The notes beneath the pieces are model-generated. The model was given only the letters and a program-made list of their open reading frames with translations, made no database searches and was not told where the DNA came from. A stretch of DNA of 64,000 bases from Mytilinidion resinicola. Its lineage: Eukaryota; Ascomycota; Dothideomycetes; Mytilinidiales; Mytilinidiaceae. The translations under genes were made by a program, and so were the position numbers. This document shows, one piece after another, positions 3,301-63,280 of the stretch. The stretch is from assembly GCF_010093595.1 (NCBI RefSeq), contig NW_022985456.1, positions 681,114-745,113 of the forward strand. The letters run 5' to 3'. How positions within the stretch are numbered: position 1 is the first letter of the stretch; each line of letters begins with the position of its first letter.

Positions 3301-4992
3301 TTAAAACACATACCTGAAATGCGGATTCTGCTTATCCGTCAAATCCTTGAAGTCAGTGTCCGCATGCACCCTCGCATCCTTCGCCAGATCAACCCGATCT
3401 CTCCTCGTATTCTCCCACTTGCAGTGCCCGCAGTACATCGCAATCGTGATCAGACTTAGCACATAGCTGCCCAAGATAGCGCCCATACCCAGTGGATAAA
3501 GCGGCGCCTGCTCAGCCTTGAAGAACTGCGGCGCAATGATGTTGGAGACGCAGTAAGCGATGAAGATGAGCGCGTTGGTGGTGACTTTCTTGGTGTGTCC
3601 TGCCGTGTTGGCTGTGTTGATACCGAGCGCGACGATATAGGGCCCAAGGTAGAAGTAGGACATGTAGAGGGCTGCGAGGCGGCCATTGTAGTTGTGTAAG
3701 GGCAGCGTGTAGAGGAATACGGAGGAGATAAGGCCCACGATGATTCCGAAGGCTACCCAGGCGCTGCGGAGCTGGTGCTTGGGGAGGTACTTGGCGCAGA
3801 GGAAGACGCCGCCGTTGCACATGTATGAGCTGGCGGTCTGCATGATTCCGGTAGGCATCGTGAGCAGCACTGAGCGTTGGGAGGTGTAGCCCAAGCCCTT
3901 GATAATCAGAGGAGAAAAGTTAGTCAGGCCACCATTGGGGATCGAGATCCAGATGTTGAAGAAGAACATGAGCCATGTCTTTGGGTCTAAGAACGCTTCG
4001 ATCATCTGCTCGCGCTTGAAAGTTTTGTTTTCGACACCGGTCTGGTCAGCGCGAAGTCGCTCCACGAGAATAGCCTTTTGGCGTTCATTGATGAATTTGG
4101 TCTTGACGGGGTTGTCGGGGAGGAAGACACCAATGACAACGGCCCAGACGATAGTCATGGCACCAGTGATCCAAAACATGGACCTCCATACGTGGTCGCC
4201 AGCGATGAAGCCAATACCGTATCCGATACTAGAGAGTTGTTAAACGAGTCTTGACTGGATAAAGAAGTAATATCGAACTTACGGGCCAGTGAAGCACACG
4301 GAAAGGCCAGTGTACATAAGACCTGTCCGGAGAGGCTGTTCTCGACGAGTGTACCACATGCCAAGAACCAAGAAGTTGCCAGGGACAATTGGTGCTTCTA
4401 AGACGCCCAGCATGACTCGGAGAGCAATGAGAGTTGCGAAGTTGTTGGCGAATCCGGTGCCAATCAGAATGATACCCCAAAGCAATTGGGCCACAAACAT
4501 CAGCTTCGCGATGGGAAATCGCTGCAGGAGACTCCCGGACGGGAGACACCAAAAGAGATATCCAAACTACAGTCATGTTAGAAATTGTAACACTTGCTGT
4601 CTTTCTTCTAGACCTACGTAAAAAGCGCTGCCAACCCAGCTGTATCGGTCACCGGTGAGATCGGTGTCTTTTTTCATCCCGTAGACTAAGACCCAGTTAG
4701 CAATTGCGAAACCTGGTCATATCTCTCCAAACTTACGCGCAGCAGTAGATGTGGTGACTTTGTCCATGGCACCTAAAGTGACATTGAACCACAACAGGGG
4801 CACAAGTCGCAAGTCTAGCTTCCATCGCAGCCGGACCTGTTCCTTGCGGGTGTAGGCATTCTCGCCATCGAGCTGGCCGGCATAAGCGGCAGCAATGTCG
4901 ACGTCGTTGGAGACATAGCCATGCTTCATGGACTCGGTATCGCCCGCCTCACCCGGATTGACGGTCATCTTGGTGTCTTTGAAGTCGGCCAT
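3301..4992 (-). CDS. MFS transporter of the allantoate permease (DAL5/ACS) family
   Basis: A membrane transporter of 511 residues, probably importing an anionic organic solute such as a ureide, vitamin, nicotinate-like acid or dipeptide. Exons read on the minus strand are 4992-4737, 4685-4618, 4566-4283 and 4228-3301, with introns of 51, 51 and 54 nt carrying GTAAGT, GTAGGT and GTAAGT donors. The frame closes exactly. The start at 4992 is the first ATG in frame; the only upstream in-frame candidate is a TTG. The protein has an acidic N-tail, then LDLRLVPLLW entering helix 1, RFPIAKLMF, the family hallmark GVLEAPIVPGNFLVLGMWY, and a GYGIGFIAG helix. The long central loop (QTGVENKTFKREQ) and a second half of hydrophobic helices fit the 12-helix fold. 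Substrate cannot be assigned. It lies about 10 kb from the peptide cluster and is not obviously part of it. Confidence 0.88.
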
Positions 4993-9723: not shown

Positions 9724-12700
9724 ATGCCTTTCGTAGATGACGGGCGGAGCTCCCAAGCTTCGCGGATCCGAATCGCCATTGACCGTGGAGGAACATTCAC
9801 GGATTGTCTAGGCATCATTCCTGGAAGGCCAGATATTCTCATCAAGCTGCTAAGCAATGATCCCGCAAACTATGCAGATGCGCCTACAGAGGGCATCAGA
9901 CGCATTCTGCAGACTGCGACGGGGACTTAGTTACTACGAGGGCAGAAAATTGATACTAGCGGGATAGGTGAGCTAAGTTGACACGAAAGCTCTACACAAG
10001 TGTGCTAAATAGAGTAGAAAGCATCAAGATGGGTACAACGGTAGCCACGAATGCTCTACTGGAGCGCAGCTCGACGCCTTGTGCTCTGGTAGTTACTAAG
10101 GGATTCAAAGATCTCCTACGAATAGGAGACCAAACGCGTCCACGGCTGTTCGATCTCAACATCCGAAGACCCGAGACTCTCTTCAAAGAGGTGCTAGAAA
10201 TCGACGAGCGAGTCACGCTGCATACAGCCACCGAGGACGCGGCGCCCATACACCCACTCGAGGGCGAGACGTACGATCTGCGAACAGGCCTCTCAGGAGA
10301 GCCAGTTCGAGTTCTCCAGCAACTAGACAGCGAGAAGTCGAGAGAGGGTTTACAGCAGCTTTACGACTCCGGCGTTAGATCTCTAGCTGTGGTGCTTTTG
10401 CATTCATACACCTTTCCCGACCATGAGCTTGAACTCGCAAAAATTGCTTCAGACATTGGCTTCACTCAGATCTCGCTTTCCTCTCAGATTTTCCCTATGA
10501 TCAAAGCTGTCTCGAGAGGCTATTCAGCTACTGCTGATGCGTACTTGACTCCGCTCACACGCGCATATGTCAATGGCTTCAGGAAAGGCTTCGTTGGCGA
10601 CCTCGAAGACACCAAGGGCGCTAGGTGCGAGTTCATGCAAAGTGACGGAGGCTTAGTTGGCTGGCAGAAGTTCAGTGGGCTCAAAGCTATCCTCTCTGGT
10701 CCGGCTGGGGGTGTAGTGGGCATGAGCCGCACGTGCTACGATCTGGAGAGGAAGAAGCCCATCATTGGTTTTGACATGGGTGGTACCAGCACCGATGTCT
10801 CGAGATTTGCTGGAGCTCTTGAGCATACCTTTGAGTCGATGACGGCTGGTATTACAATTCAATCACCTCAGCTCGAAGTTGATACCGTGGCTGCTGGTAA
10901 GCTTCGGTGTTTTTATTACTGATTTCTGGCTCACTAACACATATCTTAGGCGGCGGAAGTATACTTTCATACCGCAACGGTCTCTTTCTAGCCGGCCCCG
11001 AGTCAGCCAGTGCCCATCCCGGCCCGGTAGCATACCGCAAAGGAGGTCCATTGACTGTCACGGACGCAAATCTAGTCCTTGGTCGACTACAAGCCGACTA
11101 TTTCCCCAAGATATTCGGCAAAGGCGAAAATGAGCCGCTCAACTATGAAGGAGCTCGTGCTGCGTTTCAAAAACTAGCATTCCAAGTGAACGCAGACCTT
11201 GAAGCATCCGGTGGAAAGACGAAATCGATTGAAGACCTCGCCCTTGGATTCCTGGAGGTGGCCAACGAGACTATGTGCCGACCCATCAGGGCGCTCACGG
11301 AGGCTAAGGGCTACAGGACATCTGATCATGATCTTGCAGTTTTTGGTGGAGCTGGTGGACAGCATGCTTGCGTAAGACTGTCAATCGGAGCTATTGCTAC
11401 GCTTTTGCTAACGATGATTAGGGTATTGCTTCAAACCTTGGTATTGATAGAATTCTCGTACACAGATACTCATCTGTTCTATCGGCCTATGGTATGACGC
11501 TGGCAGACCTCGTTCATGATGTCCAAGAACCGTGTTCTACTAATCTCGAGACCTCACTGGAGGAGTTGGATCAGCGACTTGCGAATCTCGAAAAGACTGC
11601 TGTCGAGAGTCTTGCTCACGAGGGAGTTCCGGAAAAGCTGATGAGCTTCGAACATTTCCTTAATTTATGTTATGCCGGCTCGGATACGACTTTCATGATT
11701 CAAAGACCCGAATCAGGGACCTTTGCTGAGGCCTTTGTCGCTGAGCACAAGAGGCAGTTCTCATTCATCATGCCTGGTCGAGATGTCTTAGTCGAAGACG
11801 TACGAGTCCGTGCTACCGCAAGGAGCCCTTCAATAGAGCCCACCTTTACGCTGAGCAAGCACCTCTCTGAATTCCCACCTAAACCCGTTTCATCGAAGAA
11901 AGCCGTAGACAGTGTTAAGATGTATTTCGAGGATGGTTGGTCTACGGCACCTTTGTATACTCTTGGAACGCTCTCTCCTGGAGATCTTGTCAGCGGACCG
12001 GCCATTATCTTAGACGATACCCAGACCATCGTCGTCAGCCCAAAGTCCAAGGCCATCATTCTCGACCGCCACGTTGTCATTGAGCTTGATCAGAAGAGTG
12101 CTGTATCAGAAATCACTTCAGATATCGCGAATAGAGTCGTTGACCCAGTCCAGCTTTCCGTCATGGCTCATCGCTTCATGTCCATCGCTGAGCAAATGGG
12201 ACACGCCCTCCAGAAGACCTCAGTCTCTGTCAACATCAAAGAACGACTGGACTTCAGCTGTGCTCTATTCAGCCCCGACGGTCGATTAGTTGCAAACGCC
12301 CCTCATGTTCCTGTCCACCTGGGCTCAATGGAACAAGCAGTCATGTATCAGCACAAACTGTACGAAGGAAAACTCCGCCCTGGCGATGTGGTCGTTTCCA
12401 ACCATCCCATCTCGGGGTAAGCTAGCCTATATTTATAGTAACACTGACTAGATCTATGCTAATGCCAGTCTCAGAGGAACACACTTACCAGATATAACCA
12501 CGATCACGCCCGTCTTCTCCGCCGACGGCAAAGAGATCATCTTCTATACCGCTTCCAGAGGTCATCACCAAGAAATCGGCGGCATCCTCCCCGGCTCCAT
12601 GCCAGCAGGCAGCGTCGAGCTCTTCGAAGAAGGCGCAACGATCGTATCCCACTTCCTCGTCCGCGATGGTCATTTCGACGAAGAGGGCATGACGAAGCTT

Positions 12701-13897
12701 CTCCTTCATGACCCAGCCCAATTCCGCGGCTGTAGCGGCACCCGCAACCTCGCCGACAACCTCAACGACCTCAAAGCTCAAGTCTCCGCCAATGCTAAAG
12801 GTGCTGCTCTCGTAACAGACCTTATAGGTGAACATGGTCTCGATACGGTCCACTTCAACATGCGCGCTATCACTTCCAACGCCGAATCGGCTGTCCGCGC
12901 TTTCCTCCTCCGCACCCACGCCGAACGTAAAGGCGAGCCATTGACTGCCATCGACTACATGGACGACGGCACTCCCATCGCCCTCACCATCACCATCGAT
13001 CCCACCACCGCATCCGCCCACTTCGACTTCACAGGCACAGGCGAGGAAGGCTACCACTCCTTCAACGCACCGGCCGCAATCACTCGCTCCGCCATCCTTT
13101 ATGTCCTCCGCTGCCTCATTGCGCAAGACATCCCCCTCAACGAAGGCTGTCTCCGGCCTCTTACTTTCACGATTCCAGAAGGCAGCATACTCAACCCTTC
13201 TGCCACTGCTGCTGTGTGCGCGGGTAATCCGATTACTAGCCAGCGCGTCACTGACGTCGTGATCCGCGCATTCGAAGCCTGCGCCGCCAGTCAAGGCGAC
13301 TGCAACGTCATCTCCTTCGGCCACGACGGCGATGCAGCTTACTCCGGTTTCGGCTTCGGCGAGACAATCTGCGGAGGCAGCGGTGCAGGACCCGGGTGGC
13401 ATGGGACCAGCGGCGTGCATATCCATATGACGAACACGCGGATCACCGACCCAGAGATCCTAGAGAAGCGTTACCCCGTCGTGCTTCGCCAATTTGAGAT
13501 CAGAGACGGCAGTGGCGGACGCGGTAAATGGAACGGGGGCAACGGGATCAGGCGAGTGTACGAGTTTGGGAAGGACATGGGTATGAGTGTTGTGAGTGAG
13601 CGGCGGGTGGTGAGACCGTATGGGATGAAAGGGGGCGGGGAGGGGGCGAATGGGGTCAATTTTCTGGCGAAGAAGAAGGAGGGCGGGGAAAGAAGGTAGT
13701 GTAGAGTGGGAGGCAGGAAGGATTTCAAGGTCGGAAGGGGAGATTGGTTTGTTATCGATACCCCCGGGGGAGGAGGTTGGGGGGTTGAGGGGGCAGCAGA
13801 TGGGGAAGAGGGGGAGAGTGAGGAGAAGAAGCAGAAGGAGGTAGATGACATCAGGTTTTTGACGAGATTCCAGATGGAGCAGGAGAGGTCGAATTAG
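9724..13897 (+). pseudogene. 5-oxoprolinase / hydantoinase (HyuA-HyuB fusion) with two in-frame UAG codons
   Basis: The family hydrolyses 5-oxoproline to glutamate with ATP in the cytosol (gamma-glutamyl cycle), or related hydantoins. Exons are 9724-9967, 10018-10896, 10950-11371, 11422-12416 and 12469-13897; four introns of 50-53 nt have good splice sites and the total is exactly 1323 codons. The HyuA part starts [15 protein letters not shown] and contains MGTTVATNALLER, LSGPAGGVVGMSR and GFDMGGTSTDVSRF. The HyuB part contains NHPISG, GTHLPDITTITPVF and near the end DTPGGGGWG. TAG codons at 9928-9930 (between GT and LLRGQKID) and 13697-13699 (before CRVGGRKDFKVG) interrupt an otherwise well kept sequence. 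The first fits a CAG to TAG change in a CpA context, the RIP target. The gene may be newly dead, strain-specific, read through, or affected by base-calling errors. Confidence 0.85.
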
Positions 13898-15284: not shown

Positions 15285-16279
15285 TCATATCCATAACCTA
15301 TCATTCGCTCTATTCTGATCCAGATACTCATAAATCTGCCCATAGTCTTTGCAAACATGCAGCGCATCCCATCCATCGCTCCCCATAAAGCCCTCTGGAA
15401 ACGTCGTCTCAGCTCCTTCCAGTGCTACATCTCCACAGCACATGATGCTCAGCCGGAGATACTCAAAGCAATGCTGCAGATGGAATGTCATCGCGGTTGG
15501 CAGCTCCCTAGGATTTTCTGACGTAATAGCGGAGTAGACGGCGAGGATGTTATACTGCACTCGCAATCGCGTATCAGCAACATCCGTGTGTCTTAAGTGA
15601 GAGAGTATTAGGAGGACATGGTAGCGCTTACGAGGCAATGTAACTGATGCGGCATCGATGTCGTGAGGACGGTCATGTTGGTATAGTCGTGGATAGGGGT
15701 GGGGAGGTTGTCATATTCGGCTGGATGCTCAACGTGAACGTATCCGAGCCCCTCTGGTTCCATTTGTTAGGAATCAAGCTCGGCTAGAAATGGACAGAGA
15801 TATAGATAGGAGGACGCACTTGGAACGATACTCAGCCATTTCTCCTGCACCGCATCGCTCCAGAACTCAGACGTGTTTTCGGGGACGAAGGACAGATCTC
15901 GGCCGAACTTCGTGATTTGTTGCGAGACTAGCATAACTGAGTTCAGCCGCCCGCCTTTCTTTTTCAAATATCATCTGAAATGGATTAGACAACACTTACA
16001 GCGGGGCGCGAAGCCCGTCACATCGCCAGCAAACTCGTACCGCTGCTTCTGCCACCCATGCCACCGCGACTCGGCAACCAGGACAAGAATAATGAGGATA
16101 AGTGACGTATCTACGATCCACCAATTCGAGCGTAGAAGCGCCCACGCCCGACCTCGCCGTGTCAATGCTCGTGGCGGGTGCCAGTCACTCTTTTCTCCTA
16201 TTAGCGACTCTTCGATCTCGGTTGAGGAGGCCGAGGGCTCGGAGGAGCGGACGGGGTGGTAGGCCGTATCCGGGGTCAT
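15285..16279 (-). CDS. UstYa-like (DUF3328) oxidase of the peptide cluster, copy 1
   Basis: A 259-residue membrane-anchored protein of the family that oxidatively cyclises dikaritin RiPPs (ustiloxin, phomopsin, asperipin) in the secretory pathway. Exons on the minus strand are 16279-16000, 15927-15820, 15753-15632 and 15554-15285; introns are 72, 66 and 77 nt and the frame closes exactly. Residues about 53-70 (IVDTSLILIILVLV) form one membrane helix after a basic tail. Family landmarks follow: DLSFVPENTSEFWSD, KWLSIVPKGLGYVHV, the first HxxHC as HQLHC (165-169) and the second as HLQHC (195-199) just before FEYLR. Both paired motifs, thought to bind a metal, are intact. The start at 16279 is preferred over an upstream in-frame GTG. 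The gene runs in the same direction as the precursor gene 650 bp upstream. Confidence 0.88.
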
Positions 16280-16930
16280 CTTTTGGTTGGAATGGCACAC
16301 TGAGTGGGCTGATTACGGTTTTTAAAAAGAGAAGGAGACGGCGATGAGAGGTCAATGTGCGCGGTCGATGTTAAATAGCTCGGACACGGCGCCCCGCGGG
16401 ACAATCTAACCGTCTCTGAGTAGGCACTACAGGCTCCCATGCCACTTTCATGCCGTTGACTCGCGAGAGATAGTCGGGGCCAGGGAGGCATACGCAGTCA
16501 CGGCAAATAGGTGAAATTCATGGGTTGAGCGATTCCATCTATAGTTGGAGGTAGGGAGCGCAGCAAAGATAAGTTACGAGAAGTCTCTGCTCATGGTATC
16601 GCTAGCTATCTTATCTCCAGAAAGAAATCAACGTAATCCACTTAAAGTCACCACGTCATCTTCATCTACATTCTACGTAGTAGAGGCCCTCCACCCTAAT
16701 AAAGAACGGACGCCTGGCGGCTATCTCGACGCAAGCTCAACCTCACTGATGGCTAGCTAAATAGGACTCCAGCTGTAAACCTCACCGAACTCACCTCTGC
16801 CACCGACTAGACCCGGTCCATTCTGTCGATCAAAGAAATCCTCAATATAGTCCTGCTGCCTTCATGGCTCGCCCACGGTCAATGGCGCTGGGCCTTCGAA
16901 GCCCCCGTAATAGCCACATGCACGGAAAGC
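16280..16930. promoter_or_regulatory. promoter region of UstYa-like copy 1; 3' region of the precursor gene
   Basis: About 650 bp between the precursor stop and the ATG of the first UstYa-like gene, both on the minus strand. No known domain or RNA was found. A GC-rich patch (GGCGCCCCGCGGG at 16388-16400) lies about 110 bp upstream of the ATG. No copy of the TTCCGGA motif of the divergent promoter is present here. Confidence 0.4.
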
Positions 16931-17403
16931 TTAGTTTTTGTAGCCTTGATGGCGTTAGCATCCTGTATTCACGTTCAAGGCTGCAAGTTACTTACCAATG
17001 CGGGCAGCGAGTAGATTGACTTCGTCATCACCACTGACTTGGGTTGGGTTTTCCGCGAGGGCATTATAAGCGGAGTCGCGCTTTTCCTTGTACCCGATAC
17101 GGGCAGCGAGAAGGTCGACCTCGTCATCGCTAGCAACTTGCGTAGGATTCTCCGCAAGAGCTTTGTACGCGGTGGAGTCGCGCTTGTCCTTGTACCCAAT
17201 ACGGGCAGCGAGGAGATTGACTTCATCGTCGCTGGCAACCTGCGTAGGATTCTCCGCAAGAGCTTTGTACGCGGTGGTATCGCGCTTGTCTTCATGACTT
17301 AGCATCACCTTTTAGGAGAAAGATATGTCAAAATGTTACCAGCAATAGGAGCCGCCGCAGCGAAGCTTGCCATGGCAAGAGTAAAGGCAAGTGTGAACTT
17401 CAT
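16931..17403 (-). CDS. secreted repeat-containing RiPP precursor (dikaritin-type) with Kex2 sites
   Basis: Predicted 123-residue precursor. Exons on the minus strand are 17403-17340, 17289-16996 and 16944-16931. Intron 1 (50 nt, GTAACA...AAG) and intron 2 (51 nt, GTAAGT, perfect GCTAAC branch site) keep frame. Residues 1-21 (MKFTLAFTLAMASF, then AAAAPIA) form a signal peptide. DKR follows at once, then three units at 25-58, 59-92 and 93-123. Each starts D(T/S)(T)AY(K/N)ALAENPTQV, has SDDEV or GDDEV in the middle and ends LLAARIGYK; units 1 and 2 end in DKR and EKR. The last unit stops at GYKN, encoded by a 14-nt final exon. Signal peptide, near-perfect repeats and Kex2 dibasic sites among UstYa-like genes define fungal dikaritin precursors. 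Candidate cores contain the conserved Tyr of ARIGYK, next to the Kex2 site, or of AYKA. Which one is modified cannot be told. The compound is not recognised. Confidence 0.85.
16996..17289 (-). repeat. three tandem 102/99-bp coding repeats of the precursor
   Basis: Three head-to-tail copies code for the precursor's repeat units. Copies 1 and 2 are 102 bp; the last lacks one codon (DSAYNA instead of DSTAYKA), and that in-frame loss supports the chosen reading frame. All three reading frames are open over much of the array, but only this one gives Lys-Arg sites at every boundary. Changes between copies are few and partly silent, pointing to recent duplication or gene conversion within the array. 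Confidence 0.85.
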
Positions 17404-18504
17404 ACTGGAGAGATCTTGCTGTTCCGGAGAATGCTGGTATTACTGACACGACAGCTAGAGCTTTGAGAGATGAGGAGATAGAGGCCCTTGGTCAAGCGGA
17501 TGCACGTAGTCAGTCTTGTATCTTCCACCTTCAGATCCCGCGAAGCTCCTCGGTCCAACCGACCATTCGAAATCCCTTACATCATTCGGTTCCTTGGATA
17601 GTTGGCCACATGGGCATCGAGAAATGGAGCTGCAGTGTGATAGTATTCCAACAGCACGCCATCGCCCGTTTGGGGGACACAGGCCGACCAGCCATGATTA
17701 GCATGTGCGATGGGCAACATTCTCCACTCTATATATTAAAGCACGGACTGAACAACTGGCAGGGCGTCGAATATAACGCTAAGCGCGGCATGAACAGTCT
17801 AGGATCGCTCCCTCAAGGTTGGTCGTTATTTCCCATAGAATGGTATGGGGTCGGTGGATTTAGGTTGCAGTCGAAGGCGGTCAACTGAGAGTAGGCATAG
17901 AGTACATACACCAGAAAGGAAAATCATTGCCCAGTATGCATCTACAGAAGCATCAGCTGGCGGCTAAACAAAATTGGTTACATTCGTCTTGACGTAGACG
18001 AAGGAACATATATGTAGGGATACAAAGCGGATGTAAGCTAGACAGTCCGATGGTAACCTACCTGACCTTTGCTACCGGGAAAAGAATGGCTGTATCGGAT
18101 TCATTCGGAATGGCATGTCCGGTGTTGAAATTGACGTCCCCAACGTACATCCGGAATCCCCTCCCCTCCGAAACCCTGACGCACGTGTAGCCTGAACTGT
18201 TCCGGATGGGGGTGAATTCCGGATGTACGTTGCCGCACAGAACGACCTGACATGGACCTTCATACAGGGCAGAATTGAACGGTGATCTGCTTATCTTCGG
18301 CACTTGATATGTATGTACACTGGTAAGCGGGGCTCATTGCATATCTCGGGTGTCTCCTTACCTTGCCTTTTAATCTCAAACGCTGATGTAACACAGCGCA
18401 CTTTGACACACAGCACCTTCTTCTTGTCCTAGTCTGCCAGACTGCTACTTTACCATCAACCATTCCTCAACTTCCTAACGTTTGATTCAAACATCTCTCC
18501 TAAC
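17404..18504. promoter_or_regulatory. 1.1-kb divergent promoter between the precursor and UstYa-like copy 2
   Basis: The precursor gene (minus) and the second UstYa-like gene (plus) are transcribed away from this region, so it probably drives both. CTGTTCCGGA occurs at 17418-17427 and again near 18198-18207. CCGG-centred sites cluster at 18,090-18,230. A TATA-like ATATATTAAA lies near 17,731. Frames within it (17463-17888 plus; 18058-18303 minus) show no known domain and are treated as non-coding. Confidence 0.55.
18141..18232. promoter_or_regulatory. 17-bp perfect inverted repeat with CCGG motifs, candidate operator
   Basis: The left arm, caacgtacatccggaat (18141-18157), is the exact reverse complement of the right arm, attccggatgtacgttg (18216-18232), with a 58-bp spacer. 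Each arm contains TCCGGA, which is itself palindromic, and another TTCCGGAT lies in the spacer near 18199. Fungal Zn2Cys6 activators bind paired CGG/CCG triplets, so this could be the site of a cluster-specific regulator; no such regulator gene is seen in the window. A hairpin or small inverted element is an alternative. Confidence 0.5.
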
Positions 18505-19521
18505 ATGTTTGGCTTCAAGTTTGGGTCTAAAAGGTTTCCGTTCATGGAACGGGAAAAAACAGTGTACGCTGCTCTCCGTGATGGAGCTTCATCTCCGAGT
18601 GATGACGACCTCGAGGAGAAGAACAGCTACGCGAGACCCACCTCGACGATGCCAGGACGGCTCTGGAGAATATCAGTAGTACTGTTGCTCCTGGCTACAA
18701 ACCTCTCGACTCTCATTGCTCTCATAACGACTAAACAACTTGCTGCTCAGATCGATTCAGGAGATCCGGTGTATACACCAAAGTCCTGGGGTGAGTTTGG
18801 AACGCGAAATACGGAGTCTAGGATATAGCGGCTAATTGATGCCATAGCTCGAGTTGACACACTCCCAACGACCTTTACACGGTTCAACTGGTGGACCGTA
18901 TACAGCGAAAAGAACTTCACGGAGACGGACGCTCTCTGGGACGCCATCAATCCCGCCCATGGCTTCATTGCCATGGATCGCGAGTGGGCGAAATCCCAAC
19001 ATTGGCCAGACAGCATGCACTTACCGAGCGATCCGAGCAAGAATGTGTATCTCCTGGAGGCGTATCACCTCCTCCACTGCGTGGCAAGTATTCCGCCACC
19101 TTGCAAGTTCAGTAATTTGACATTTTGCTGATGCCTTGACGAACAGACGGTTATCCGCAAGACCTTTTGGCAAGCCATACACCGCGAGGAGCCTTACTAC
19201 TTTAATCCCCCGCACGCAGGTCATTGCATCGATATGCTGCGGCAGTACGTGATGTGCAAAGCGGACAACACACCACTGTATCTTTTTGGCGATGACACCG
19301 CGGGAGATGAGCAGTACCGAAAATGCAACAATTGGGACGTTCTGAGGCAATTCGCTACTGATAATTCGGCATGCTACCGTGATACGCCACCAGATGTTGA
19401 CAAGAACACGTTCCCGCTTGGGGCCCACTTTGGGTACTGCGACGGTGGATATGACGGGCTAATAGAGGGGGAGAGGCGAGGGCCCTGGAAACACGGCGTT
19501 GTTTTTGACGGGCCGGATTGA
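18505..19521 (+). CDS. UstYa-like (DUF3328) oxidase of the peptide cluster, copy 2
   Basis: A 298-residue protein. Exons are 18505-18790, 18848-19083 and 19147-19521. Intron 1 is a normal 57-nt GT-AG intron. The second (19084-19146) is best read as a GC-AG intron with a GCAAGT donor, which keeps the family spacing after the first motif (HCVTVIRKTF); a GTGGCA donor three bases earlier would drop one Val. A membrane helix lies at about 54-76 after a charged N-tail. The motifs are HLLHC (169-173), in place of the commoner HQLHC, and HAGHC (197-201) followed by IDMLR. The C-terminal part is about 90 residues longer than in the other two copies and contains CKADNT, KCNNWDVLR and GYCDGGYDG, with several extra Cys. 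It may therefore act on a different bond or partner. It diverges from the precursor gene across a 1.1-kb promoter region. Confidence 0.85.
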
Positions 19522-20750
19522 GTGGCGCTAGGAAGACGCATGACACGGCGGTCGTGGACTAGATGTCGCGAAGTGTGCAGGGAGAGTGAGGGAGAGCGGC
19601 ATCACATGAAAGATGTAAACGAATGAAAGACCTAAATGACCGTCCTCTGTCTGACGAGTTGGTGAGTAACGGTAGGGGGTGAAGGTAGCTGGCTAGGTAA
19701 AGGAAGGATACGATGCATGGAAAATATCGGGAGAATCTGCGAGGTCGTAATAAGCAGGGAGGGAGAGTGGCATCACATGAAAGAATTTAATGAATGAAAG
19801 ACCTAAATGACTGTCCCCTGTCTGTCGAATTGGCAAATAATGGTAGGGGTTGAAGGTGTAGAGGAAGGATACGATGCATGGAGGATATTGGGAGAATCTG
19901 CGAGGTCGTAATAAGCTTGCCGAGACCCAAGCTTGCCTACCGGCCCGTTCCTAAATAGGCATCGCCTAGGTCGGATTGAAGGCCTATGTATCTACTACCC
20001 GAGCTTAATGTCCATGTGCATGATCGGTGAGATCGATGCCGCCACTTCCGTGACATATCTCGTGCTAGTCGGCATCGACGCGTGCCGGATTTTCCCTGGC
20101 CGCATCATCACACCGTTGCCCCGCACCGGCCTTGATATTGCACTCCACGCAAAAGTGATTCTGTAGAAGCAATGCAGCAAGGAATAGAATCCTACGTGAC
20201 TTGACATCCTGTGGAGCATATATCCTGTTTTCCCGGCCAATGACATTCCTACACGGTATTAGAAGCCCCACCCTACCTCAGTGATTGTGTTCAACATGTA
20301 TAGGATTTTCTCTCTGATATAGTGTTCAAGCATGCTGACAGCCACGGTATAGAAGTCGATCCATTCTATTAGGAAAATGCCATTCAATGTAGAACTACCG
20401 ACAGGACAAGCATATCTTCCTCAGCGCCTCTGAACAGACCTCGGGAGTCATCTTACTATCAACACTGCACCTACTGGCAGTTTTGGCTGACATCATGGCG
20501 ATCTTAACCAAATGCCTCACTGAAATCTACCCCTGCTCTGCGAGTGGAATGCTCTTGCCCCAGTTGGACTAGGTCCCGGTAAAATCCGTGACCTTTACTT
20601 CTGTCTATACTTCCTCGCGTACAGCATAGCTCGGCAATAAAGCCCTCTCCACTGATTCGTGCGTACCTCATTCTCATCAAAGCCTGCTTCAGGCGCAGCC
20701 TTCAGGACCCCCACCCACTTCTCCGCACGTCTCTTTCAAGGCATCTCACG
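19522..20750. other. intergenic region with a tandem duplication
   Basis: 1.2 kb between UstYa-like copies 2 and 3. It contains the direct duplication at 19578-19916 and otherwise no recognisable gene; the small frame at 19933-20166 has no known domain. The last few hundred bases should hold the promoter of UstYa-like copy 3; no TTCCGGA site was found there. Confidence 0.45.
19578..19916. repeat. two diverged tandem copies of a ~165-bp non-coding segment
   Basis: Copy 1 spans about 19578-19755 and copy 2 about 19756-19916. Shared blocks include GCATCACATGAAAGA (one base differs just upstream), GAATGAAAGACCTAAATGA and GATACGATGCATGGA, then GAGAATCTGCGAGGTCGTA. Copy 1 has a short extra piece (AGCTGGCTAGGTAAAGG). 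It lies just after the stop of UstYa-like copy 2. The copies differ by many substitutions, mostly transitions, so the duplication is not recent or has been under mild RIP. Confidence 0.75.
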
Positions 20751-21731
20751 ATGTCTTACGACGCCCCCAAAGAGCCCATCGACGGCCCCTCACCTCGCGG
20801 CTCCCTTTCCGACCTCGAAGAATGTCCTTTGACGGGCGAAGAATCACAATTCCCACTCAAGCAGCGGAAACGGCTCCACTGGCAGTGGCCCGCGAACGAC
20901 AGCCCATTTTGGAAGTACTACTCGCTCTTCACGACGACATGTACTCTCATTCTGCTTGTAACTCTCGTTCACGATAGCACTAGCTCGCGGAGGCCTACTG
21001 CCGCTGCGCCAAGCAAGCCAGACATGATTCCTCTAGAGTCCTATCCCCATCTCGCCGATACCTGGAAAAAGGAAAACCTCGTTAAGACGAAGTTCTATCG
21101 GGATACGCGATATATGTCCATTGACCATGACTTGGATTACTTGTGGCAAGAGCACGTTTTGATGTCCACAGGCAACATCAGGATCCCGTCGGAAAAAGGG
21201 AAAGGCAACAGCTCGTTGATGAGCATCAGCATGTGAGCAAGCCTAGGTCTCGCACTCTTCTTTTCAAATCGCGTGTTGAAATTCTAGTGAGAATGAAACT
21301 CACCAATCAAGGTTCCACCAAATGCACTGCCTCGCGAAAATGCGACTCGCGCTCCAGCAAGCACGGGAAGGTCTCATCGACATCGGCGTCGATTGGAGAG
21401 ACGACGCACACTGGCCGCATTGCTTTGATTATTTGCGTTCAGTACGTTAATTCACATTCCATCTCTTTACTGCCCCCCTGAATTTTTGCACAACGGCCTT
21501 CTGATACCGCGGTAGTCGATAATGTGCTACGCCGACGGAACGCTGGAGCAAGTGACTCTACAACCAGGACCGGTAGACGACGGGACGTTTGTGAAGGTCA
21601 TTGATGGCGGTGTCGAGACCCGGTATTGTCGGGATACGAAGCCGTTGTATGATCTTGAGAGGCAGTATGGGCCGAACTCGCACTATGGGCACGAGGCCGA
21701 TGATCAATTTCAGGTTGCACCGGGGAGATAG
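20751..21731 (+). CDS. UstYa-like (DUF3328) oxidase of the peptide cluster, copy 3
   Basis: A 275-residue protein. Exons are 20751-21232, 21312-21441 and 21516-21731; introns are 79 and 74 nt with GTGAGC and GTACGT donors, and the frame closes exactly. One membrane helix (YYSLFTTTCTLILLVTLV, about 55-74) follows a Ser/Pro-rich cytosolic tail. The first motif is HQMHC (163-167), the second HWPHC (194-198), followed by FDYLRSSIMCYADGTLE, a typical UstYa ending. The C-terminus (TKPLYDLERQYG) also matches the family. Both metal-type motifs are complete. It lies 400 bp upstream of, and in the same direction as, the methyltransferase gene. Three different UstYa-like proteins in one cluster suggest more than one oxidative step, or heteromeric oxidases as proposed for UstYa/UstYb. 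Confidence 0.88.
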
Positions 21732-22133
21732 GATTGGGTTGGGTTCATGTAGATGTATATTCTGGGCCTATAGTTGATATAGTAGACGATGATACTGCTG
21801 CCTACATGGTAGTTTACGTGCTGGATGAGGAGATTGGAACATCGTCGAGTGACTGCGCTGTCATTTAGACCCTGTAGCGGTTCGAGTTCCGAGATGAAGA
21901 GATAATGCTCTATATACCTCGTAAAAATGATGAACTCTGAGCTTGAACATAAGCTATTGCTATCAGTCTAATGCATGTCGGATCTCCAGTTGGTTGCTGC
22001 TATTGCCGAATTCTGCTCGCCCCTCGCCGACTCGAAATGTCACGCTACGTGACGTAGGGATATTTCGTCTGCAACCGCCTGGAATCGACGTACATATAAA
22101 TCTACCTGCTGGTATCGGCAACTTCTCGACCAC
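21732..22133. promoter_or_regulatory. intergenic region upstream of the methyltransferase gene
   Basis: A 400-bp spacer between two genes in the same direction. A tRNA B-box-like GGTTCGAGTTC (21879-21889) lacks a matching A box and no cloverleaf folds around it, so it is not called as a tRNA. The promoter of the methyltransferase should lie here; no specific site was recognised. Confidence 0.4.
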
Positions 22134-23601
22134 ATGAAGACCGCAACAATGTCAAACTCCCGAATCATACAGCTCGCGCAGCTGATCACCTCTCAAACCT
22201 CAGTTGTAGACAAACATATCCGCGACACCGGCCTTGTTCAGCCATCCTTCAATGAAGACGATTTCGCCCAATCAACCCAGCCCTCTCCACCCGAGGTCGA
22301 GCGCGCGAAAAAATCCGTGATTGAAGCAACCATCGAACTCCGCCAATTGCTCGAAGGGCCTATGAAGCTTTTGGTTCCTGATGTAAGAATAAGCAGCCTT
22401 CCCACCAACCCATATATTTCTGCTTCACACTTAAAGCATACCACTCCCGTCCGCACTAACACCCACCCAAAAGTCTAACTTCTTTCCCCTCGCCGCCATT
22501 TCGCGCTTCAACATCGCATCCAATGTCCCAATCAATTCCTCCATCTCCTTCGCCAACCTCGCGGAAGCCTGCGGACTGCTCGAGCACGACCTCCACCGCA
22601 TAATCCGCTACACCGCCGCCCACCACCACGTCTTCCGCGAACCAACTAAGGGATGGGTCGCGCACACCGCAGCATCTCGCCTACTCGCTGAAAGCAGCCC
22701 AGCGCGGGACGTGATGGTGCTCACTTTCGGGGAGTGCTGGCCTGCGCACGGGAAGGTGAGTGCGGTTGCTAGTTATCCCGAAAGCCCGAAAGCCCAAAAC
22801 AAAGACAATGAAGCTGGAGATGCGATCGTGCTTGTAAGCTTTCAACTAACGACAGTGTGGAAATTGTAGGCCCTCGACGCAATAGCACAGCGCAGCTCCG
22901 AACCAAGCATAAGCGGCTATGCCCTCGCTAACGCCACGACGCTGACGACGTTCGAGTTCCTGTCCCAGAACCCCGCGCGCGCTCAGAGCTTTGCGGGCGC
23001 CATGTCTTCGACCTCGGCCGCAAGTCTGGACGCCCTCGCGGCGTATTTCGACTGGGGCGCGCTGCCCTCCTCTAGCACTGTTGTCGATGTTGGAGGGTCG
23101 CAGGGCCACGTGAGCGTGCATCTTGCACAGCAGTTCTCGCAGCTGAGATTCGTGGTGCAGGATGTGCGTGAGGTTCTAGAGGGAGCTGAGGCGAAGGTTC
23201 CGGAGGGGCTGGAGGGGAGGGTGGGATTTCAGGTGCATGATTTCTTCGCTGAGCAGCCGGTCAAAGGAGCGAGAGTCTATTTGTTGAGGTACGTGCTGCA
23301 TGATTGGCCGGATAAGTACTGTATCCGGATGCTGCGGGCGCTGGTGCCGGCGTTGGTTGAGGGGGCGGTGGTGGTGTTGCAGGAGCATGTGTTGCCGGAG
23401 CCCGGGACTATAGGGTTGTTACAGGAGATGGGGGTGAGGTCGATGGATGCTATTATGCTCTCCCTCTTCAACTCTCGGGAAAGGGATGAGAAGGATTGGA
23501 GGGAGTTGCTTAGGGAAGCTAATAAGGGATTCGTGGTGGAGTCTATAGAGCGGATTAAGGAGAACCCGACAACAGGGGTTATCGTTGTAAGGTGGACGTA
23601 A
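22134..23601 (+). CDS. SAM-dependent O-methyltransferase (plant COMT-like) of the peptide cluster
   Basis: A 420-residue enzyme. Exons are 22134-22382, 22474-22755 and 22870-23601; introns of 91 and 114 nt both end in clear CTAAC branch regions. The N-terminal half holds the winged-helix dimerisation domain typical of plant-type O-methyltransferases (ASNVPINSSISFANLAEACG; LLEHDLHRIIRY). The C-terminal half holds the Rossmann fold: motif I VVDVGGSQGH (248-257), and RYVLHDWPD (317-325) with the general base His321. Fungal members methylate hydroxyl groups in polyketide and peptide pathways. A tailoring role on the cluster's peptide, for instance on a Tyr-derived phenol or beta-hydroxyl, is inference from position only. 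A second in-frame ATG at 22149 is an alternative start. The gene ends about 20 bp before the AT-rich, RIP-mutated region begins. Confidence 0.87.
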
Positions 23602-24113: not shown

Positions 24114-26453
24114 CTAGAAGCGGAAAGCGCCTAGATGGCCGCCTCTTAATTGCTGATTGAAAGGAACGCCGTATACACCATTGTACCAAGGTCTTACACC
24201 TAAAGATTCTCCTTCACTACGAACAGCCTCTTCCTCAGGAGTACACAGAGGGCCATCCTCAAGCGCTGTTTGACTGTCAGGGACTAAGGAAATAGAGCCC
24301 TGGGCCGCTGTTAGGGTGCCTACTTGTCCGGCGGAGAGGTCTGGTGCTGTATTTATGAACTGTACAGGATTGTTGAATACTACAATGGTCCTCTCGACCG
24401 CCGGCGTGTCTGTAGAGACACCTGCCATAGTAATTTGGCTGGCTGGTGTCGCAATCTGCATCGATTGTGTTGGTTCCTGTCCACTTGCAACACTCTGCTC
24501 TTGTTGTGCACGAGCAGTAGTCTTACGAGTTCGCCGGAGATGTGATGTTCCTCCACGTGATCCTGGTCCTCCACCACGCCGTTGTGCTCGCTGCGCTACG
24601 CTCACTGGATCTTGTTNNNNNNNNNNNNNNNNNNNNNNNNNNNNNNNNNNNNNNNNNNNNNNNNNNNNNNNNNNNNNNNNNNNNNNNNNNNNNNNNNNNN
24701 NNNNNNNNNNNNNNNNNNNNNNNNNNNNNNNNNNNNNNNNNNNNNNNNNNNNNNNNNNNNNNNNNNNNNNNNNNNNNNNNNNNNNNNNNNNNNNNNNNNN
24801 NNNNNNNNNNNNNNNNNNNNNNNNNNNNNNNAGAAGGAGAGGATCTACAGGAAGGTCCACCTCGTTTGGAACAGGACGATTGAACCACCAGTGTTGATGA
24901 ACATCCTCTAGCACAACTTTATACTCAGCTATCGATATAGCGTGCAGTTTTCTGTGTATTTCGTGACAGCATGGCATGCCGTACGTCCCTCTAAATGTTC
25001 TGTTGCATATCAGGTTAAAATCGTCATCCTTAGCCTTCTTGATCTGCTTGGCGATCAATCGGAGGCCCTGCTCAGTAACTTTTCCAATAACCTCACTAAA
25101 TTCGGGCAGCTTTACCTCGTGCTGAGGAGCTCTACGTTGTCGGCCAAGCTAGTCCTTTAGCTCTACACCTTAGCGGTGAATGTATTAAGATAGTAGTGTA
25201 ACTACATTATATAAGTCACCTGTCGAGATCTGAAGATATAATTTAATGCTGCCGTTTAAACCTTCGAGCCGTAAGATTATAGTGTTGCCGAAGTGCGGCA
25301 GAAGGCTAGTATAATATGTAGCAATCTCCTTTCTATATAGCCACCACTTTTTAGTAAGGTAATTAATTAGGAGTTATTTATACGTATAATCTAATTTTAT
25401 CTTATTCTAAGCGGCTATAAACTTATCTTCTATAGGTTTTGCTAGGCAGAAGTTAAGCTTATTAATAAATTTCTTTCGATCTTTCTATATAGCCTTAATC
25501 TCAGCTATTATTAGATTTTAAAAGGCACGTGCTGCATTCTATAGATCTATAGTATTAGTTACTGCTTACTTATCGTTCTTCTAGATAGCTATAGCCTTGC
25601 TGGCGATGTTTTTCTGCACGTGCTATTTGTATAGAAGTTAAGAAACAGTAGGAAAGAACTTAGCCAGCGCATTTTTAAGTGCTAGCTCTTTATCTATAAT
25701 AAAAACGCCTAGCGAAACTCCTAGGCGCTAGTATATAAGATAAAGCTCACGTACTATAAAGATATAGTCCCCCTCTTCTTTTTCTAGAAGGAAATAATAG
25801 CCTAGCTTATAGTTCCTACCCTAGTTAGTAACGCCGTTAATATAGAAAAGCGGTATCTTAAACTTATTTATTTTATAGGTGCAGTTAAGAAGAATAATAT
25901 TAGGATTCCTCTGGAATATCTAAACACTTTTAGGATATATAAAGTATAGATACTTAATATAGTTTACTTTATCTAGCTTGTATTTATAGTAGTAATAAGC
26001 GTCCGGGTTATTACCGCCGTGTTCCTTAAGCACCTTAAGTATAGCCTAAGTTAGAGTAAGCCTTTAAAGCTTTATTTTCTTCTACTCCTATCTTTTATTA
26101 TATAGGTCCTGCATCGTTATATTCTTACCCTTAGTAAGTAGGTTATTAAAAATAGCACTAACAGGCGTGCCTCTATTAAGCTAATTATATATAGTTTAAA
26201 TTATATCCTTATCTAGATCTTAGTATACGGCTGGAGTCCTTTTATTAGTATTAAACGGCTTATAATTATAAATAGAAACCTTAACTTTAAAAAACTAATT
26301 ACTTAGCTATAAATTTCTTATAAAAGCTCCTTTTATAAGGTAATTAGACTTCTTTATACAGGTGTTCTTCTTCCTATTAGCCGGCTTATATATACCCGCA
26401 TAATCGCAATAAATAAGCACCTTCCGCACCTAAGGTGGAGTGCGCTTATCCAT
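24114..26453 (-). pseudogene. MULE transposase, broken by RIP stops and an assembly gap
   Basis: A frame of about 780 residues from ATG 26453 to the stop at 24114. In the mutated half one still reads the MULE catalytic domain: LDCTYKTNKF-like (about 25.8-25.9 kb), NGVTN, IIDKELALKNAL (about 25.7 kb) and WHVQKNI (about 25.6 kb), broken by TAG/TAA codons. The intact half (from about 25,148 down) reads LPEFSEVIGKVTEQG and then the SWIM zinc finger, CNRTFRGTYGMPCCHEIH, with conserved Cys/His. After the SWIM domain come the gap and a Ser/Arg-rich tail. The transposase would bind the terminal repeats and cut and paste the element. This copy cannot make it. Confidence 0.8.
24617..24831. other. assembly gap (215 N)
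   Basis: A run of N within the C-terminal part of the MULE transposase. The true length is unknown; the reading frame appears kept across it, so the estimate may be right or set by read pairs. Repeated copies of the element could have caused the gap and could also have joined two copies. Confidence 0.95.
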
Positions 26454-60200: not shown

Positions 60201-63200
60201 CGGTGGGCGAATTAGTAGTATATTATTTATAGTTGGTATTACTATTTTAGCAGAGGTTAGAAAGTATATAGGGCGGTTAACTAGCAGAGATTAGTCTATT
60301 TATATAGGAGCCCGAGCCCGAAAAGGGTTAAATAATACTATAGAGGAAGCGGAGGCGGGTTTAAATTAATAATACAGCAAGCGCAGAAAATAAAGAGGAT
60401 AAAGAAAAGAAGGATAAAGAGGAGGATAAAAAGCAAGGAGAAAAAGAATATAAAGTAATAGAAGAAACCGAAAACATCGCCGAGGATAAAGGGGGAAAGA
60501 ATATAGTTCTATTACCTAAGAAATAGAATTCTAACCGTTTAAAAATAGTATTATAAGAAGTATTATTGTAATAGATAGGGGTTAAGTTAAATATTATAGT
60601 ATAGAGACACGGTACTAAGGCTATATACCGTTAATATATTAATTCTAAGGCGGTTATAAAGGCGGTAGTGCAGGGCGATAAGAACGATTTAGATAATAAA
60701 GACAAAGTATTTAATATCTAGACCGGCTATAGATCTAGGATTAAAGGGGGAATATATAGTTAGTCGATTATAGAGTCGATATTTAGCACTAAGGCAAGAA
60801 GGGTATAGTTGCAGAGGGTTAGTATAAAGTAGTATTAGTTTTTATAGTTCCTATGCGCGATACAGACTAAGCTAAAAAAAAGAACCTGCGCAGCAGCCGA
60901 TAGAAAGAAGGCTATTAAAAAGGAATATTAATAGTGGAAGATAATAAAATTAGTAGATATAAAGCAGCAGTTAAAAGCGTTAGTAGGCGAAAAGGCCGAA
61001 TTTCGGGGCGTATAGAGACTAGTATTAAAGGCTATTATATACTATAAGAGCCCGGTAGTTGCTATTATAGGCACAGGTAGAGGCAAGAGCATATTATTTA
61101 TATTGCTAGTATTATATTTAACAGGCGTAATAGTAGTAGTTATGCTATTAGTATTATTATAGAAGGATATAAAAAGCCGTTGTAATAAAGCCGGCATTAG
61201 TTGCGTTGAATAGAATAGTTAAAGTCCGCAAAAATAGGCGCAGGTCGTGTTGGTCACGCCGGAGTCGGCGGTTAGGGAGGTATTTAGCAATTTTATTAAC
61301 CGACAGCGGTTAATAGAACGGTTGGACCGGATTATAATTAATAAATGCCACGTAATTTTGGATTTAGTAGGCGGGTGGAGGAGCAGAATATTAGCGTTAA
61401 GGAATTTAGTTATAATAGAAACGCAGTTAGTGTATTTAATAGCAATAATCTAGCCCTAAAAAGAAAAGGAATTTATTTAATTAATAGGGTTGCCAGCTAG
61501 GGAAGAATGCCAGTGGTTTTAGGGGCCAACAACGCGGAAAAATATTATATACTGCATTTAATAATACAATATATAATAGGAAGAAAACGCAGTTGTTAAG
61601 TTAGTAGAGAGTTTAAAGCAGAAGCACCCGGGGGGGCAGGTAATTATATATTGCAACACGGTGAAGAAGACAATTCGATTGGTAGAAGTTTTAGAGTGCG
61701 TTTATTTCCACCGAAATATAGGAAGCAGCAAGGAGAAGAGCGAGTTGGTAAAGCAGTTAACTAAAGGGCGATAGCAGGTGTTTACGGCCACGAACGCATT
61801 GGGGTTAGGCATTAATGCGCTAATAATTCGAGCGGTAGTGCACGTTGGAACAATTCGAAAAATGCGGCATTACGCGCAGGAGAGCGGAAGGGCAGGGCGT
61901 AATAGGCGGAAAAGTAAAGCAATAATTATGCACGGATTCCGAACAGATAAAAGGGGCGTTGTTTATAAGCAGGATTTTAGGGAGGACGTTAAGAAGGAAA
62001 TACAGGGATTTATTATAGGTAGAGGTTGTATAAGAAAGATAATTAATAGTGTAATAGATAGGAACTAAAAGCAAGTAGAATGCGAAGAGGGGGAACAGAG
62101 ATATTAGCAATATTAAGCGCGTTTAGAAGTAGCGGTTAATAAAAAGAAGGCAGTTATAGAAGCCGAAGTAATAACCGATATAGTAGTTGCTAACAGGGAT
62201 ATAGATAAGATTGTTTCGATTAATTAGAATATACGCGCCAGTATAATAGTTGTAATTAAGGACGCCGATAAGCCCGATAATAATATATAGGGCGTTACCA
62301 CAGTAGACAGCGTGTTAGGGGTACTACTAGCAACGCCCCGGATGGAAAAAAAGGCGGTTGCAGAGAGAGTGGAATTTAAGCAGCAGTTATTAGTTTAAAA
62401 GGCACGAGCAATTAGAAAGGCAAGTTTATAGTTAATAGAAGTATTAGAGGTGGATAGATTAGTTGAATTAATAGAGCAGTAGAAGGTGGGTTGCCAGCAA
62501 TATTAGGTATAGGAGGAAAGGAGTAAGGGGCATAATATTTGGCATTGCGATAAGCCGGAAGCGGAGAATATTCGGGTAGCAATTAAGATATTTTAAGAAA
62601 AGATAAACCTAATAAAGAAGGCGCAAGGAAAGGGGGCAAAAATATTATAGGCACTGTTTTTAGGGTGTTAGGAGTGCGGATTACTATAGGGGGTTTGCGT
62701 AAGTTATAAAAAGGATACAACGCAGGAAGGGTAGCAGAAGTAAAGGGGAAAAAAGTGTTAGTATAAAGAAGTATTAGCAGCAGTAGTATACGCAGTATAG
62801 GTGCAGTATTCTAAGGAGTTTAGAGATTTTGTTAAGAAGGAGATGTAAAAGGGGGGGTAGAAAGAAGGCAGCAACAGGGATTAGAGGAGCGTGTTATAAT
62901 AGTTTAGCGGGAAGGTTTAATAGGGTGGATTAGAGTTAAATTAAATATATTAGGGATTTATTAGATTTATAGAGCAGGTTAGGAGATAGGAAGTTTAGGG
63001 TTATTAAAGTTTTAAAGGGGGAGGTAGGTAGGTGCCTGTATAGGGTTAAGGGAAGGCGGCGGCAGTAAATATTTAAAGTAGGATAAAAAAGTAAGTGTTA
63101 AGTATAGAGTAAAAGTTTAAAAAAGTTTGTTTTTAAAAAGGGGGGGTAGGTAGGTGCCCGTGTGGGATTAGGGAAAAGCGGCGGCAGCGGATATTTAGAG

Positions 63201-63279
63201 TAGAGTATAGAAGTAAAAGGGAAATATAGAGTTAGAGTTTAAAAGGGGTGTTTTTTAAAAAGAGGGGGTAGGTAGGTGC
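57265..63279 (+). repeat. 6,015-bp tandem unit carrying a RecQ helicase relic (telomere-linked-helicase type)
   Basis: The sequence from CCTATTAACCTATAGGT (57,265) recurs at 63,280 with a period of 6,015 bp and about 700 bp of visible high identity to the window end, so the unit is tandem, head to tail. The first copy shows more TA where the second has CA or TG. Near the right end the unit holds short satellite-like repeats. Tandem RecQ-containing units are typical of fungal subtelomeres. Confidence 0.8.
57930..62960 (+). pseudogene. OrsD-like zinc finger / RecQ helicase (telomere-linked-helicase type), RIP-degraded
   Basis: The N-terminal part reads EFTRIFEHIPQYYIIVCRVY and TQLQMHLTKHY, a C2H2-like segment as in DUF3505/OrsD proteins often fused to fungal RecQ helicases; one Cys is Tyr here but Cys in the second copy. 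The helicase part has GTGRGKS (Walker A, about 61,075), LVTPESA (61,250), a box II remnant NKCHVILD where families have DECH, and TATNALGLGI with QESGRAGR (61,785-61,900, motifs V and VI). A Cys/His-rich tail follows (about 62.5-62.7 kb). Box II shows G->A changes at both acidic codons, so ATPase activity would be lost even without the many stops. Two open pieces remain at 61247-61453 and 61778-62068. Confidence 0.75.
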
Positions 63280-63280
63280 C
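63018..63280. repeat. three copies of a ~122-bp satellite at the unit junction
   Basis: GGTAGGTAGGTGCC occurs at about 63023, 63145 and 63267. The first two copies are followed by related sequence (GGGAWWRGCGGCGGCAG... and a TTTAAAAAG-rich end). The third runs directly into the start of the next helicase unit. This shows where neighbouring units recombine or were duplicated. Confidence 0.7.

Follow-up and report, generated by a model that had tools for sequence, protein, structure and literature searches.

The locus and its genes

Mytilinidion resinicola belongs to the order Mytilinidiales of the class Dothideomycetes, and PMC11514609 gives bark as the habitat of mytilinidioid fungi. Within its genome of 47.1 Mb in 44 contigs, we analyzed a window of 64,000 nucleotides (C20:681114-745113) on a contig, C20, of 750,812 bases, in which a precursor gene with internal repeats, three genes of the UstYa/DUF3328 family (Y1, Y2, and Y3), and an O-methyltransferase gene lie side by side (Table 1). 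Together these five genes probably constitute a dikaritin-like (ust-RiPS) cluster that directs production of a secreted ribosomal peptide with oxidative modifications. A preliminary description of this DNA had proposed a dikaritin-type cluster whose extent, as measured here, runs exactly from the stop codon of Y1 to that of the O-methyltransferase gene. The three UstYa genes and the O-methyltransferase that it listed are borne out by Pfam matches, and its overall reading is supported both by the combination of Kex2-repeat and UstYa anatomy and by the recurrence of some of the parts together elsewhere. Introns were inferred from splice signals, reading frame, and homologues, and all have GT-AG borders save one GC-AG intron in Y2.

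Table 1. Features of the M. resinicola cluster, numbered from the first base of the window (pN and pS, proportions of nonsynonymous and synonymous differences).
Feature	Position	Strand	Details and basis
Cluster	15285-23601		Left to right: Y1 (-), precursor (-), Y2 (+), Y3 (+), O-methyltransferase (+)
Precursor, 123 aa	16931-17403	-	Exons 17403-17340, 17289-16996, 16944-16931; sequence model, relatives P0001-P0005, pN/pS
Signal-peptide-like exon MKFTLAFTLAMASFAAAAPIA	17340-17403	-	Model; similar start in P0003 ahead of first Lys-Arg
Exon holding three repeat units, 102-nt period	16996-17289	-	Repeat analysis, codon comparison
Last exon, 14 nt, completing unit 3 to RIGYKN, then stop	16931-16944	-	Annotation of three relatives departs immediately after RIG
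Y1, UstYa family, 259 aa	15285-16279	-	Exons 16279-16000, 15927-15820, 15753-15632, 15554-15285; PF11807 E 6.7e-16; HQLHC (165), HLQHC (195)
Y2, UstYa family, 298 aa	18505-19521	+	Exons 18505-18790, 18848-19083 (GC donor), 19147-19521; PF11807 E 4.9e-27; HLLHC (169), HAGHC (197)
Y3, UstYa family, 275 aa	20751-21731	+	Exons 20751-21232, 21312-21441, 21516-21731; PF11807 E 3.4e-19 (first model); HQMHC (163), HWPHC (194)
O-methyltransferase, 420 aa	22134-23601	+	Exons 22134-22382, 22474-22755, 22870-23601; PF00891 E 1.7e-24; VVDVGGSQG, HDWPD motifs
Intergenic region precursor/Y2, divergent	17404-18504		34-nt imperfect inverted repeat 18141-18174 / 18199-18232

The precursor and its repeat units

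The precursor opens with MKFTLAFTLAMASFAAAAPIADKR, followed by the units DTTAYKALAENPTQVASDDEVNLLAARIGYKDKR, DSTAYKALAENPTQVASDDEVDLLAARIGYKEKR, and DSAYNALAENPTQVSGDDEVNLLAARIGYKN. Its N-terminus is hydrophobic and leads into AAAAPIADKR, an arrangement that, on inspection of the sequence, resembles the start of P0003, a relative from another fungus, and that is signal-like, suggesting secretion. A second exon starting at GTGATGCTAAG was rejected because it brings a stop or the wrong phase; use of the acceptor ahead of ACAAGCGC preserves the frame and yields AAPIADKR, comparable to AAPITEKR in P0003. Were intron 2 left unspliced, the frame would read RIGK followed by a stop.

The three units measure 34, 34, and 31 residues and end in RIGYK(D/E/N). 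Lys-Arg stands ahead of each, such that repeated core or recognition units with Kex2 sites between them are present; the third unit has no trailing Lys-Arg, and its end is encoded by the 14-nt third exon. The preliminary description had correctly recognized three near-identical repeats, each preceded by Lys-Arg, and had given their lengths as 33-34 residues. At the DNA level, the repeat has a period of 102 nt and 2.9 copies (Tandem Repeats Finder score 375). Codon comparison of the units gave pS/pN values of 0.38/0.04 (unit 1 versus 2), 0.88/0.08 (1 versus 3), and 0.79/0.10 (2 versus 3). Because pS lies far above pN in each case, the precursor is not a product of chance and the gene is under selection; judged by these values, that selection on the units is strong and purifying.

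No Pfam domain was matched in the precursor at E<=0.01, and no second genomic copy was found at E<=10. The hallmarks of a mating pheromone are likewise absent, there being no pheromone domain at the same Pfam threshold and no STE13 signature (XA/XP) after Lys-Arg, where the units begin with DT, DS, and DS. EDYXI, the core motif of ustiloxin and phomopsin, does not occur in its sequence.

The UstYa-type genes and the O-methyltransferase

Each of the three UstYa-type proteins carries two HXXHC motifs, and their genes all lie inside the 8.3 kb of the cluster, no more than ~4.4 kb from where the precursor starts. A nearby UstYa gene with two such motifs is the class-defining feature in the later definition of dikaritins, or ust-RiPS, cited in PMC12048977. 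In each protein the most hydrophobic 19-residue stretch begins at residue 53-56. The model of Y1 is identical over 259 of 259 residues to the public M. resinicola protein P0026. The first model of Y3 was replaced once its exons had been corrected from homologues; Pfam and homologue searches with Y3 used the first model, and the coordinates in Table 1 are those of the final one. Directly 3' of Y2, at 19585-19916, lies a tandem duplication with pieces of 102 nt and 59 nt that are 85% and 93% identical, respectively.

Solved structures closest to the O-methyltransferase include HpiI and LepI, which are pericyclases. Assignment of the cluster protein to the pericyclases was nonetheless rejected, as alignment places a His in the O-methyltransferase at the position where LepI has Arg; we take this retained His to be the catalytic base. 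The PF00891 gene supplies the methyltransferase of the five-gene definition of dikaritin clusters (Ding et al., cited by PMC12048977), and the tyrosinase of that definition has no match on C20; functional clusters short of some members were found later, according to the same source.

Relatives in other fungi

Protein homologue searches covered the precursor, Y3, and Y1. A search with the precursor returned five proteins from 1,619 candidates: P0001, P0002 (ENA), P0003, P0004, and P0005. The last three, from Arthroderma sp. PD_2, Trichophyton tonsurans, and T. benhamiae, respectively, share the RIGY ending. None of the five is identical to the M. resinicola precursor, suggesting that the latter is probably without public annotation.

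For comparison of the units, Lys-Arg-delimited pieces of the relatives and of the M. resinicola precursor were kept if they held RIG, leaving 16 pieces, in which the presence of RIG is thus the selection criterion, and dropping four N-terminal leaders. All 14 pieces with an ENP/LNP motif also carry RIG. RIGY is found in 13 of the 16, the other three being last units whose annotation diverges right after RIG, at the site of M. resinicola intron 2; one Arthroderma last unit stops exactly at RIGY. Every complete unit (14/14) has a Tyr near its start, and AENP is present in all but one of them (13/14), a Trichophyton unit with ALNP. Units vary mostly in their acidic middle part and at residues near the first Tyr.

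Searches with the UstYa-type proteins yielded 20 matches for Y3 and 306 for Y1, of which the best 120 were listed. In a FastTree phylogeny of these 120, Y1 falls within a clade of seven (support 0.99) comprising M. resinicola, Rasamsonia emersonii, Onygenales sp. PD_12, Lindgomyces, Clohesyomyces, Zopfia, and one further protein. In all three species suited to a test of co-location, representing three genera, the Y1 and Y3 orthologues lie on equally long contigs (481,215, 449,360, and 382,732), and from these equal lengths we infer that the two share one contig; three other members of the clade were unsuited owing to differing assemblies or isolates, or to an unassigned contig.

A further link is provided by P0018 of T. 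violaceum. Though named an O-methyltransferase, this protein consists of a Y3-like UstYa portion with both HXXHC motifs followed by an orthologue of the cluster methyltransferase, in the same order as in M. resinicola, with 108 of 214 aligned columns identical in the methyltransferase part. P0018 is without the membrane segment and the C-terminal half of the methyltransferase, and the model may therefore be misannotated or decayed; UstYa genes of this family may be hidden in misannotated models of this sort. The Y3 of M. resinicola itself is not among the 20 search results, possibly because its model is likewise fused and exceeds the length that the search could accept. Scanning of viral and genome contig sets with Rasamsonia Y3 gave no confirmed match.

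Precursor homologues in genomes devoid of UstYa-like genes, which the preliminary description had named as grounds for abandoning a dikaritin-type assignment, have as far as seen not come to light: Trichophyton has both the relatives P0004 and P0005 and the UstYa-methyltransferase P0018, these coming from different species rather than one strain, and no UstYa match is listed for Arthroderma sp. PD_2. With relatives of its parts in other fungi, the M. resinicola cluster looks like a real pathway.

Trees were also built with IQ-TREE from 12 chosen Y1 proteins of the 120 listed, and from M. resinicola Y3 with all 20 of its matches. In the Y1 tree, the clade of seven has a bootstrap value of 86, and Lindgomyces, Clohesyomyces, Zopfia, and the further protein form a group (99) that excludes M. 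resinicola, which joins Rasamsonia and Onygenales at just 53. Bootstrap values in the Y3 tree are 90 for the corresponding group of nine and 52 for the M. resinicola side of eight. Both proteins thus group, at weak support, with Eurotiomycetes and not with Dothideomycetes outside Mytilinidiales. Lindgomyces, Clohesyomyces, and Zopfia are genera of the Pleosporales, to which Mytilinidion would be expected to lie nearer, yet it is grouped elsewhere, a hint of horizontal movement or of an old duplication of Y1 and Y3.

Comparison with known systems

By its structure, the precursor is a Kex2-processed repeat protein (KEP; PMC7329392, PMC6339444). As reported in PMC7329392, 1,758 of 7,878 KEPs (22%) have UstYa genes nearby, mating factors almost never do so (three pheromone-precursor exceptions), and the share of repeats with Tyr is 65.6% where UstYa genes are close by and 38.2% elsewhere. 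None of the conserved Pezizomycotina KEP motifs taken from the main text of PMC6339444 (EDYXI, DADAATXYV, YVW, SPPHKT, QKLKVD) is present in the M. resinicola precursor.

Among individual systems, the ustiloxin cluster (UstA, UstYa, UstYb, UstQ, UstM, and others) is similar in having a signal peptide, Lys-Arg-delimited repeats, two UstYa genes, and a methyltransferase (PMC7329392, PMC6514808), UstM being described as an N-methyltransferase (PMC12048977). It differs in its 13-residue units with EDYXI (PMC6339444, PMC7329392), as opposed to units of 31-34 residues with RIGY(K), and M. resinicola has no tyrosinase match on C20 and no flavin monooxygenase among the open reading frames scanned. Phomopsin resembles the present cluster in that several UstYa genes (five, with PhomA) surround a repeat precursor (PMC7329392), but it has 14-residue units (PMC7329392), an unrelated core, a tyrosinase and, in related clusters, S41 peptidases (PMC7329392, PMC6514808), neither enzyme being matched on C20. 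The asperipin-2a cluster (AprA, AprY, AprT, AprR) likewise combines a repeat precursor with a UstYa-type oxidase, in four genes and without tyrosinase (PMC6514808, PMC7329392), but has a single UstYa, 8-residue units (PMC7329392), a reductase and a transporter, and another core, whereas M. resinicola has three UstYa genes and an O-methyltransferase. Lastly, double-HXXHC UstYa genes adjoin an O-methyltransferase in the lichen clan R1 clusters as well, for which PMC12048977 reports a tyrosinase and no identified repeat precursor, in contrast to the clear precursor found here and to the lack of a tyrosinase match on C20.

Full-text literature searches, which left out supplements and most subscription journals, returned no description of this precursor family, and the strings RIGYK and AENPTQV occurred there in unrelated papers only. 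As repeat precursors linked to UstYa genes form a large kind that is already known, the novelty lies in an uncharacterized precursor family rather than in a new kind. This family has a conserved RIGY(K) end, and its unit length is two to four times that of ustiloxin, phomopsin, and asperipin-2a.

Proposed pathway and alternatives

In the dikaritin-like pathway favored here, the precursor would enter the secretory pathway, and Kex2 cleavage after each Lys-Arg would release three nearly identical peptides of 31-34 residues. Membrane-anchored UstYa-type oxidases would then introduce at least one crosslink at a Tyr, the O-methyltransferase would add a methyl group to the peptide, and proteases encoded elsewhere in the genome would trim its ends. 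Such a pathway is supported by the signal-like start, the Lys-Arg-delimited units and the constraint upon them, and the three double-HXXHC UstYa genes, as well as by the RIGY of the relatives, the co-location of Y1 and Y3, the P0018 fusion, and the His kept in the methyltransferase. The core is most likely RIGY(K) at the end of the unit, just before Lys-Arg, in which case the AENPTQV stretch would be a recognition sequence; the Tyr region at the unit start is the less likely location.

Several observations weigh against this interpretation. Firstly, ustiloxin and phomopsin need a tyrosinase (PMC7329392), and an exon-level six-frame search placed none of the 16 tyrosinase-family matches of the genome on C20. 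Secondly, precursor and UstYa genes were seen to adjoin only in the M. resinicola window, and six of the 11 named taxa with a Y3 match (Pyrenochaeta, Mollisia, Lophium, Setomelanomma, Polyplosphaeria, Trichophyton) have no Y1-clade member among the 120 listed Y1 matches, suggesting that the gene set is not always complete. Thirdly, no solved relatives of Y1 were found, its AlphaFold model is poor (mean pLDDT 64), and a PDB search with that model gave no match at E<=0.001, such that a metal site is not seen. Additionally, the six precursors known, three of them close kin, make a small sample, the invariant Tyr means that the core could sit at the unit start, and the pathway is known here from sequence rather than at the level of product, transcript, or protein.

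A less likely alternative is that the pathway is of the same kind with its core in the N-terminal part of the unit (AYKAL/SYPEL/AYEIM/AYAAV: Tyr, two variable residues, one hydrophobic) and AENPTQV...RIGYK as a follower. All 14 complete units have Tyr there, followed by residues that differ from species to species, as expected of a core that diversifies next to a conserved recognition sequence, and a core can evolve freely when the recognition site adjoins it (PMC12048977). The most constant stretch, however, is RIGY(K) next to Lys-Arg, and the Arthroderma unit that ends at RIGY also favors a C-terminal core.

Oxidation of the peptide by the UstYa enzymes without ring closure, whether by hydroxylation, halogenation, or another reaction, appears rather doubtful. 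UstYa-family hydroxylation and chlorination are described for the cyclochlorotine cluster (PMC12048977), and the missing tyrosinase match would fit such chemistry, but Tyr-bearing repeats beside UstYa genes are a known setting for ring closure (PMC7329392), and the asperipin-2a cluster manages with only four genes and no tyrosinase (PMC6514808).

We consider it very unlikely that the repeats give rise to a linear secreted signal or pheromone, with the UstYa genes as chance neighbors or acting on another substrate. Although 78% of KEPs are without a UstYa gene nearby (PMC7329392), and the first units of two relatives begin with AP after Lys-Arg, resembling the STE13 signature (PMC6339444), the M. 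resinicola units have no XA/XP in that position, pheromone precursors lack UstYa neighbors with the three exceptions reported (PMC7329392), and here three such genes lie close to the precursor start, two of them co-occurring in three other genera. Equally slim are the chances that the cluster is silent or in decay at the edge of a subtelomere, for although this is the last recognized gene group before ~46 kb of AT-rich DNA and its precursor is missing from the database search results, five frames stay open across predicted introns with regular borders, base composition is as in the left flank, and the units are strongly constrained.

A bolder proposal, which we regard as improbable, is that of an uncharacterized family of ribosomally synthesized and post-translationally modified peptides spanning at least two fungal classes, skin fungi included, in which the three UstYa enzymes would join the two Tyr-bearing ends of the 31-34-residue unit, the invariant RIGY end and the Tyr near the start, into one large ring instead of a 4-6-residue core, and whose cluster would have passed between Eurotiomycetes and Mytilinidiales.

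Genomic surroundings

The right edge of the cluster lies at C20:704714, and the contig ends in TTAGGG repeats ~46 kb away. The intervening DNA is AT-rich (22-44% guanine plus cytosine, GC), with dinucleotide indices resembling those of repeat-induced point mutation (RIP) over 24-64 kb of the window; GC content and RIP indices over the cluster resemble those of the left flank. Right of 24 kb there are eight open reading frames of at least 100 aa, with no Pfam match in either of the two scanned. An open frame of 344 aa at 24114-25148 (- strand), without a Pfam match, contains a run of 215 N at 24617-24831, and a 122-nt tandem element at 63014-63281 is, by eye, like the sequence just before the telomere.

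To the left lie genes for a dynamin, a major facilitator superfamily (MFS) protein, an aminotransferase, and a hydantoinase/oxoprolinase, and farther away an isocitrate lyase and a Zn2Cys6 regulator; we saw no reason to include any of these in the cluster. As to the transporter or peptidase of the five-gene definition, the selected open reading frames scanned include the MFS domain (3301-4239), ~11 kb off the cluster, and an exon-level six-frame search placed none of the nine S41 peptidase matches of the genome on C20. The local absence of tyrosinase and peptidase genes remarked upon in the preliminary description is in line with these searches, although a gene split into short exons could escape a search made exon by exon. 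Just left of the cluster, at 9972-13699, hydantoinase/oxoprolinase A-type and B-type domains stand side by side in what was taken to be an ordinary metabolic gene.

The arms of the inverted repeat between the precursor and Y2 are 85% complementary and contain TCCGGA words, and the outer 17 nt do not recur exactly anywhere else in the genome; the element may be a regulator site or what is left of a mobile element. Promoter words of 8-12 nt common to the four upstream regions of the cluster were in no excess over shuffled sequence.

Implications

To our knowledge, the product has been established for few UstYa-dependent peptides. With only five genes, a unit that is long and conserved, and orthologues of two of its UstYa genes apparently on one contig in three other genera, the M. 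resinicola cluster would be a compact case in which to address the role of each UstYa protein without a tyrosinase, and its product can now be sought. Judging by the relatives found in Trichophyton and Arthroderma, skin-dwelling fungi may make related peptides.

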